From Gammaproteobacteria bacterium (GTDB lineage: Bacteria; Pseudomonadota; Gammaproteobacteria; UWMA-0217), in assembly GCA_026981985.1 (NCBI GenBank), contig JALSHZ010000130.1, positions 1 to 40,879 on the forward strand: a stretch of 40,879 nt of DNA. Direction: 5' to 3'. The stretch's first letter is position 1; every line of letters starts with the position of its first letter. A program made the translations under genes and the position numbers. Shown here in pieces: positions 38,493 through 39,756 of the stretch. Under the pieces are notes generated by a model. It saw only the letters and a program-made list of their open reading frames with translations, was not told the origin of the DNA and did not search any database.

Positions 38493-38522
38493 TTGACACC
38501 TCAACAACCAATATTGTTCAAT
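38493..38522 (+). promoter_or_regulatory. Promoter of the wHTH-MntA/HepT operon
   Basis: A consensus -35 TTGACA (38493-38498) is followed after 18 bases by TTCAAT (38517-38522). The -10 region is enclosed by AATATT-GTTC-AATATT (38510-38525), a perfect inverted repeat. The operator at 38522-38540 begins where the -10 ends. Together these fit an autoregulated toxin-antitoxin promoter. Confidence 0.55.
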
Positions 38523-38540
38523 ATTCACGAAACGCGAATA
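38522..38540. promoter_or_regulatory. Operator-like palindrome upstream of the MntA fusion gene
   Basis: TATTCACG (38522-38529), AAA, CGCGAATA (38533-38540): 8-base arms with a single mismatch and a 3-base centre. It lies directly after the -10 and six bases before the start codon at 38547, where a bound repressor would block transcription. The encoded protein has an N-terminal winged helix that is the natural candidate to bind it. Confidence 0.6.
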
Positions 38541-38546
38541 CTGAAC

Positions 38547-39422
38547 ATGACACTAAAACCACAAGACATCCTGGTTGCTCTGAAACTGGTAGTGATCGGA
38601 AGTGCCCCCTGGACATACAACTGGCTGGCTACTGAACTCGGCATGAGTGCGGCGGAGGTTCATGCAGCTGTAAAGCGCCTGCTCACTGCCCAACTGATCG
38701 TCAAACAAGAAAAATCATTGCTACCGAACCTCAAGAACCTTGAGGAATTCCTCGTCTTCGGCCTGCGCCACGTTTTTGTGGCGGACTGGGGACAGGTTAC
38801 TTCTGGCATACCCACCTTGCATGGTGCACCGCCGCTGCGCGACAAGATCGCGGCTTCATCCAGCCCCATTCCCGTGTGGCCAGACCCTGATGGAGAAACC
38901 GAGGGCATCTCATTTTCCCCGTTGTACAAATCAGTAACAAAGGCAGCGAAAACGGATCCGGCGCTGTACGAACTCCTTGTATTGGTCGACGGCCTCCGCG
39001 CAGGCGGCAGCCATGAAAGGACGCTAGCAGCTGCAGAACTGCATCATCGCTTCTACCCTGAAAGCGCAACGACACATGAAAAGCCGCACGATGAACCAGA
39101 TACACTGTGGATATCAAGCAACCTTTCCGTTTCCCATTCAGCCCTTAGCAAACTGGCCCAAAGGTACCATATCAGCCGTCTGCAACTGTTCGGATCAGCG
39201 GCACGAGGCGAACTACAGCCCGGCAGCGATATCGACCTGCTGGTGGAGTTTAAGACCGACGAGGGGCCCTCACTCTGGGGAATGGTGGGACTTCAAGACG
39301 AACTATCCATGTTATTTGGTGGCCGAGCGGTTGATCTTGCGACTCCGGAAATATTGGAAAACCCCTATCGACGCCGCACGATTGAACCCGATTTGAAGCT
39401 GCTGATCGATGAAGCCACCTGA
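38547..39422 (+). CDS. Winged-helix regulator fused to MntA-type nucleotidyltransferase antitoxin
   Basis: A 291-residue two-part protein in one uninterrupted frame. Residues about 4-55 form a winged helix-turn-helix (IGSAPWTYNWLATELGMSAAEVHAAVKRLL). Residues about 56-175 match the rest of a stand-alone wHTH regulator family that I know from its TSGIPTLHGAPPL, PVWPDPDGE and PLYKSV...DPALYELLVLVDGLRAG pattern. The C-terminal part (about 198-291) is a minimal nucleotidyltransferase with GS-x10-DxD (GSAARGELQPGSDID, from residue 216). MntA antitoxins AMPylate the HepT toxin on a Tyr. The following gene is HepT and overlaps by 14 bases. The fusion would put DNA binding and toxin modification in one antitoxin. 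The ATG at 38547 is preferred; an alternative TTG at 38493 lies on the -35. Confidence 0.85.
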   Translation: MTLKPQDILVALKLVVIGSAPWTYNWLATELGMSAAEVHAAVKRLLTAQLIVKQEKSLLPNLKNLEEFLVFGLRHVFVADWGQVTSGIPTLHGAPPLRDKIAASSSPIPVWPDPDGETEGISFSPLYKSVTKAAKTDPALYELLVLVDGLRAGGSHERTLAAAELHHRFYPESATTHEKPHDEPDTLWISSNLSVSHSALSKLAQRYHISRLQLFGSAARGELQPGSDIDLLVEFKTDEGPSLWGMVGLQDELSMLFGGRAVDLATPEILENPYRRRTIEPDLKLLIDEAT

Positions 39423-39756
39423 GCGCGATGCCGCCCATCTATATGACATGCTTGCTGCAGCGAAAGAACTGGAACAGATGCTCGAGGATCACGACCTGGC
39501 AGCCTTTCTCAACGACCAGGTGCTGCGGCGAGCTGTCGAACGGATAAGCGAAATCATCGGCGAAGCCGCCAGGCGCGTATCGCCGTCATGCCGGCAAATG
39601 TATGCTGACATTCGATGGCGGGAGATCATTGGTCAACGGAATATCACCGCCCATGAGTATGGCCGGATTGACCACGCGCTACTCTACCGAACAGCCATGC
39701 AAGACATCCCCGTACTGATTAAGCAACTTGAATCGCTGTTACGTCTATTAGACTAG
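39409..39756 (+). CDS. HepT-like (DUF86) ribonuclease toxin
   Basis: A 115-residue all-helical protein of the HEPN/DUF86 class. The active-site motif RNITAHEY (Arg77, His82, Tyr84) matches the R-x4-H-x-Y consensus, where Arg and His cleave RNA in a dimer interface and the Tyr is the residue MntA-type partners AMPylate. The WREIIGQRNITAHEYGRID context is typical. The start overlaps the antitoxin gene by 14 bases, implying coupled translation. Expected to be toxic when free of its partner; the target (mRNA or tRNA 3' end) cannot be told from sequence. Confidence 0.9.
   Translation: MKPPERDAAHLYDMLAAAKELEQMLEDHDLAAFLNDQVLRRAVERISEIIGEAARRVSPSCRQMYADIRWREIIGQRNITAHEYGRIDHALLYRTAMQDIPVLIKQLESLLRLLD

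Follow-up and report, generated by a model that had tools for sequence, protein, structure and literature searches.

A HepT/MntA operon of a gammaproteobacterium whose antitoxin probably carries its own winged-helix repressor

The DNA analysed here, referred to as the window, is a contig of 40,879 nucleotides from Gammaproteobacteria bacterium (JALSHZ010000130.1). On its forward strand, an open reading frame runs from the ATG at 38547 to the TGA at 39420-39422 and encodes 291 amino acids with zero internal stops. The PADLOC model of the winged-helix (wHTH) family PDC-M21A (PDLC04515) matched residues 22-169 of this fusion protein (P0001) with an E-value of 4.3e-39, the Pfam search matched NTP_transf_2 (PF01909) to residues 202-281 (E = 4.5e-12), and PADLOC PDC-S09 models matched the minimal nucleotidyltransferase (MNT) part. 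The earlier note had described a wHTH domain ahead of a GS-x10-DxD domain in one frame, and the single reading frame with its PDC-M21A and PF01909 domains confirms this. From the PADLOC match and AlphaFold2, the PDC-M21A-type winged-helix domain was placed at residues 1-172 (38547-39062), with the recognition helix at residues 35-47. The linker, at residues ~173-185 (39063-39101), was placed from AlphaFold2 and comparison with relatives, and the MntA-type minimal nucleotidyltransferase, at residues 186-291 plus the stop codon (39102-39422), from PF01909, Foldseek and an alignment of 13 relatives. The GS-x10-DxD catalytic motif is intact (GSAARGELQPGSDID from residue 216; residues 216-230, 39192-39236) and is conserved in the MNT alignment of these relatives.

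The AlphaFold2 model of the fusion protein has two confidently predicted domains (mean pLDDT 94.3, pTM 0.67). The predicted wHTH has helices at residues 5-17, 24-31 and 35-47 and wing strands at residues 51-54 and 57-60. The MNT fold comes after a linker near residues 170-185, where the confidence is lower. The MNT half resembled solved HEPN-MNT antitoxins in Foldseek, namely 8xeh and 8xeo of Legionella, 7bxo of Shewanella, and 7ae9.

The second gene runs on the forward strand from the ATG at 39409 to 39756, overlaps the fusion gene by 14 bases (39409-39422) and encodes a predicted HepT-like HEPN RNase toxin of 115 amino acids (PF01934, E = 7.6e-23). Its RX4HXY motif, RNITAHEY, occupies residues 77-84 (39637-39660). 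The intact RNxxxHxY, the overlap of 14 bases and the numbering of the tyrosine as Tyr84 were all as previously claimed. Tyr84 is the predicted AMPylation site, following the work in which GSX10DXD transfers AMP from ATP to the tyrosine of RX4HXY and thereby disarms the HepT RNase (PMC7641770).

The pair has the sequence features of type VII, an antitoxin with NTP_transf_2 and GSX10DXD and, adjoining this MNT, a toxin with PF01934 or PF08780 and RX4HXY. At 291 aa, the fusion is larger than a bare minimal nucleotidyltransferase of ~100-150 aa, a size that is typical and not a published criterion. Scores of 33.5 bits against NF047752 (MntA) and 31.3 bits against NF047751 (HepT) were below the NCBIfam equivalog cut-off of 60, which is a naming threshold outside the published type VII definition; the window MNT and HepT are therefore divergent family members. 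With the HepT/MntA systems (Class I HEPN/MNT, e.g. Shewanella oneidensis SO_3166/SO_3165), the window operon shares the PF01909/PF01934 pair, both motifs, the order with the antitoxin gene first, the gene overlap and the MNT fold seen in solved antitoxins. It differs in that its antitoxin adds a 172-residue wHTH and a matching operator, whereas MntA as characterised consists of the minimal nucleotidyltransferase alone. The same genome holds a second, distant MNT-HepT pair, which is solo and has no regulator domain (L002 1471-2144; G000:C98, about 45.8 kb).

The module is flanked by a bat-type operon and soxYZ-like genes, and no defence or prophage genes were found beside it. Its GC content is ~0.52-0.53, compared with ~0.61 in the adjoining bat genes, which suggests a recent arrival but falls short of proof.

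Directly upstream, a 33-bp palindrome, TGTTCAATATTCACG-AAA-CGCGAATACTGAACA (38515-38547), abuts the start codon of the fusion gene and is a candidate operator, recognised both as an inverted repeat (11/12; 0/60 shuffles) and by a matrix of M21A promoters. The two arms are complementary at 13/15 positions and form a 15-pair stem when G-T is counted. A candidate -35 element, TTGACA, lies at 38493-38498 on the forward strand, with a weak -10 that is either TTCAAT (18-base spacer) or TGTTCA (16); these were placed from the sequence and the upstream regions of relatives, in which TATTCT stands in the place of TGTTCA. A strict promoter scan found no promoter. The fusion start lacks an obvious ribosome-binding site, as the operator directly adjoins the ATG.

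A palindrome with the core TTCGCGAWTCGCGAA was found upstream of most M21A genes. With up to 2 mismatches allowed, this 15-base core occurred in 31/42 upstream regions of stand-alone M21A genes and in four of the six fused genes; the palindrome of L004 is related but scores lower (18.8 bits). In the closest relatives, the outer arms of the palindrome (TATTCT...AGAATA) overlap the -10 region. The outer arms in the window differ from this consensus symmetrically (TATTCT/AGAATA to TGTTCA/TGAACA), which is what a site maintained as a palindrome would show. Since the core was originally spotted by eye among the upstream sequences of all genes, fused ones included, its count carries less weight than the test with a symmetric matrix, which was trained on 36 stand-alone M21A sites with no fused gene included. 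The matrix gave 29.5 bits at 38515-38547 and 3.5 at the next non-overlapping site in 40.9 kb, and over 670 kb of loci its top sites lay just upstream of M21A genes. The repression by the fusion that the earlier note had suggested is, as a prediction, supported by this conserved candidate operator next to the start codon. A search of the window's own genome with the core pattern gave only one other core with 1 mismatch (C141), which was rejected as a second operator, as it lies inside a coding region and has no outer arms.

In L019, L020 and the fused L034, the recognition helix is LSRFEAHAAVQRL in place of MSPSEVHAAxKRA, and the upstream palindrome also differs (ATGCTATATGCATATAGCAT in L020). 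Shuffle tests of these differing palindromes gave 0/300 for L020, 1/300 for L034 and 26/300 for L019, the last of which is not significant. The window protein belongs to the TTCGCGAA subclade and the L034/L019 type to the ATGCTATATGCAT subclade. This joint change of helix and palindrome is the strongest indication that the wHTH would bind this DNA.

Stand-alone M21A genes encode ~170-215 aa; as a rule, the next gene encodes ~235 aa and matches PDC-M21B (2.9e-66). Compared with the stand-alone consensus, the window wHTH has 8/13 recognition-helix and 5/12 wing positions equal, and it lies on a long branch (0.93) in the wHTH tree. One M21B-type protein tested gave no match in Pfam; another member was modelled with AlphaFold2 (pLDDT 90.4), and its nearest folds were the nucleotidyltransferase toxin MenT1 and JHP933. 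Judged by this model, M21A/M21B looks like a regulator-nucleotidyltransferase pair of the AbiE/MenAT type. The fusions have MNT-HepT in the usual position of M21B. The N-terminal half of the window fusion is thus the regulator of PDC-M21, a PADLOC phage-defence candidate of genes A and B, together with the operator of that family, whereas the M21B gene (a MenT1/JHP933-like nucleotidyltransferase by fold) is absent downstream and MNT-HepT is in its place. As the earlier note stated, stand-alone regulators occur beside other nucleotidyltransferase genes, the usual partner being the MenT/AbiEii-like PDC-M21B. Of the proposed fused two-gene regulator-antitoxin module, the fusion itself stands, with both catalytic motifs intact, but a pre-existing pair of regulator and MntA does not, since the partner is PDC-M21B. 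No paper that treats PDC-M21 by name was found in the literature searched, which covered few subscription papers. The stand-alone M21 loci L011, L026 and L028 adjoin hsdM-like genes of type I restriction systems.

The same in-frame fusion was found in five other gammaproteobacterial genomes (L003, L004, L032, L033 and the distant L034). Among 369 genomes of the class, full-length matches were limited to the window's own genome, G227 (L003, 51%) and G228 (L004, 52%), with the regulator half alone in roughly forty genomes and the MNT alone in many; a further scan, covering 84,980 species genomes, turned up L032, L033 (Candidatus Thiodiazotropha) and, as a more remote member, L034. An intact HepT gene follows the fusion in the window, L003, L004 and L032. 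The HepT gene of L033 is interrupted by ~260 bases after about the 40th codon, with the fusion reading frame still open (L033 4860-5484), and in L034 the MNT is partly masked and HepT is not recognisable.

In the orders of four genomes with the fusion or its MNT clade, members were present in 1/5, 1/4, 1/17 and 2/11 genomes, a sporadic occurrence that fits mobility, and no further members were found in the wider orders of the fusion-bearing genomes. Relatives of the same genus or family were searched for an empty site, and their contigs break near batD or soxY. No phage record matched the fusion, and the IMG/VR viral contigs contained no fusion and only three weak matches to the MNT clade; a phage or viral origin was rejected on these grounds. 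The fusion protein matched 125 plasmid records, none over more than 80% of the query. Among the matches listed, the plasmid sequences cover the wHTH half only, and plasmid MNTs are distant from the window MNT. Genes resembling REP-associated (Y1-type) transposases lie near fused and stand-alone M21A loci (L003 425-1171, L004 2690-3544, L009 2286-2759).

In the MNT tree, which rests on 98 columns, most members of the window's clade are fused to a DNA-binding protein, and about sixty further MNTs are solo. Besides M21A, the fronts in this clade are a PDC-M05A-type MarR-like wHTH, a complete AbiEi and an Xre-like HTH. The PDC-M05A-type front precedes the MNT in L029 (1174-1821), L048 (654-1295) and L128 (1498-2127), and in the more distant L053 (3749-4441) and L057 (3605-4279), where the gene may be split by a stop. 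Repeated CCCAATATGGG-like sites near the start in L029 and L048, and TGTTCTC...GAGAACA inverted repeats near the start in L053/L057, are candidate operators of their own. In L050 (3215-4363; Gammaproteobacteria bacterium RBG_16_51_14), AbiEi and MNT are joined in frame and followed by a partly masked HepT. This front matched PADLOC AbiEi over residues 5-263 (1.3e-112) and Pfam AbiEi_4 above the cut-off; the protein unites a type IV with a type VII antitoxin. In L052 (997-2023), the Xre-like HTH (HTH_31, 1.7e-5, just under the Pfam cut-off) is fused to the same MNT subfamily, with HepT following.

The solo members of the clade stand behind an hsdS-like gene (L030), behind a Shine-Dalgarno-like sequence of their own (L051) or behind an M21A-M21B pair (L054). 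In L030, the MNT (1489-1824) and HepT (1143-1607), both on the reverse strand, lie directly behind the hsdS-like reading frame. In L054 (2291-4291), the MNT comes ~350 bases after M21A and M21B, an arrangement that could precede fusion. In the genome G209, a solo MNT with a PDC-M05A-like wHTH-nucleotidyltransferase gene behind it occurs twice at nearby positions (L129 1399-2557, L139 1471-2797).

The linker contains an ATG 33-35 residues before LFGSAARG in 7/11 fusions, and a GTG at that place in L032 and L052; the solo MNT genes of the clade start 32-35 residues before LFGSAARG. A Shine-Dalgarno-like stretch before the linker start is kept together with this start in L003, L034 and L029, so free MNT may still be made there. 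In the window linker, the former MNT start codon has been lost.

The fused proteins are scattered among the stand-alone ones in the wHTH tree, and a single clade was rejected both for all six (p = 2e-9) and for the five close fused proteins (p = 5e-4). The MNT tree forces at least 2 changes for M21A, and the AbiEi-, Xre- and M05A-MNT fusions fall in the window's MNT clade. Repeated capture of DNA-binding fronts seems the simplest reading of these trees; the same pattern would result if recombination had later exchanged fronts between copies with and without a fusion.

We consider it likely that the window holds a type VII HepT/MntA operon with an antitoxin that carries its own repressor, and that it works and arose as follows. 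The fusion protein is probably both the repressor of its operon and the enzyme that disarms HepT through AMPylation. In the mechanism that we infer, DNA binding by the N-terminal wHTH at the palindrome (38515-38547), a site that lies across part of the promoter and adjoins the start codon, would repress the operon, and the C-terminal MNT would move AMP from ATP onto Tyr84 of HepT and switch off its toxic RNase activity. If the fusion protein were lost, the operon would be derepressed and newly made HepT would be unmodified; repression and neutralisation would fall together because both reside in one chain. In the order of events that we infer, an MNT-HepT pair would have taken over the position of the nucleotidyltransferase gene in a PDC-M21 operon, downstream of its promoter and operator and in frame with its regulator, and the same MNT clade would have done likewise more than once, also with other DNA-binding proteins of the antitoxin type.

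The earlier note had gone further and suggested sensing and a possible response to phage. M21A residues ~62-170 would then sense a ligand or phage product, upon which the fusion would release HepT as a defence. These residues are well conserved with no assigned role, PADLOC lists M21A as a phage-defence candidate, and type I restriction genes lie beside some stand-alone M21 loci (L011, L026, L028). However, a candidate label in PADLOC is not a tested function, the Pfam search shows no known ligand-binding domain, the module lies between bat-type and soxYZ-like genes with neither defence nor prophage genes as neighbours, and the fusion is absent from phage records and viral contigs. The suggestion is unsupported, and we regard such a trigger as improbable.

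It is also unlikely that the wHTH is a passenger that plays no part in DNA binding within an otherwise ordinary HepT/MntA pair. The divergence of the window wHTH (branch of 0.93) and the weak operator match of L004 (18.8 bits) would agree with a passenger, but AlphaFold2 predicts the wing and the recognition helix with high confidence, the adjoining operator has been kept palindromic with symmetric changes in its arms, and the fusion is kept in six genomes. A domesticated regulator, in which a HepT that is no longer toxic would serve only, by binding or by being AMPylated, to adjust the fused transcription factor, is very unlikely. Domestication of MNT-HEPN into regulatory enzymes has been proposed (PMC3710099), and in L033 the fusion frame is open with an interrupted HepT next to it; yet the RX4HXY of the window is intact, whereas the proposed MNT-fused domesticated forms typically lack the RNase residues (PMC3710099). 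The concern that a sequencing or assembly artefact joined two genes in this draft assembly of 149 contigs can be dismissed, since six genomes share the in-frame fusion and three of these represent separate families within the class sampled.

Compared with other known systems, the preferred reading of a type VII operon with a built-in repressor has partial counterparts. PDC-M05, a PADLOC candidate, has a profile (M05A) that spans a MarR-like wHTH and a nucleotidyltransferase domain in one chain as in the window, and L029, L048 and L128 have an M05A-type wHTH ahead of an MNT of the window's subfamily and a HepT. A wHTH-MNT fusion as such is therefore already known, in that this profile joins another wHTH to a nucleotidyltransferase domain. 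The wHTH of the window, however, belongs to an unrelated family, and the M05A models match only the nucleotidyltransferase motif of P0001 (~1e-4). In AbiE (type IV, AbiEi/AbiEii), the wHTH antitoxin AbiEi represses its operon via inverted repeats over the -35 and -10 elements (PMC3985639), and self-repression via promoter inverted repeats is likewise predicted for the window fusion. The window differs from AbiE in its predicted neutralisation by a covalently modifying enzyme, not by a non-interacting antitoxin, and in its toxin, a putative HEPN RNase; no AbiEi model matches P0001, and the next gene is HepT in place of AbiEii. The literal fusion of AbiEi with MNT is that of L050. In the census of Makarova et al. 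2009, MNT-HEPN seemed to be without a DNA-binding antitoxin, and a component acting in trans was suggested (PMC2701414). The literature searched, with few subscription papers covered, contained no description of an M21A-MNT or AbiEi-MNT fusion, of the operator or of repeated capture.

On balance we favour, with some reserve, a wider reading in which a single clade of type VII antitoxins would act as a portable module for neutralisation and would repeatedly have captured the promoter-operator-repressor halves of other toxin-antitoxin or similar systems, with the original second gene replaced. The captures would number at least two for PDC-M21A and at least one each for PDC-M05A, AbiEi and the Xre-like front. 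Newer fusions with an internal MNT start may yield two products, a free antitoxin as well as the repressor-antitoxin; the window fusion, having lost this start, would be locked.

Because a subset of MNTs has a DNA-binding part on the same polypeptide, and a candidate operator can be recognised, the transcriptional control of type VII systems becomes directly testable. The AbiE-type and other captures suggest that toxin-antitoxin types, which are defined by the chemistry of neutralisation, can exchange regulatory halves. If this is true, the resulting chimeric systems would be controlled like one type of toxin-antitoxin system and neutralise by the chemistry of another.
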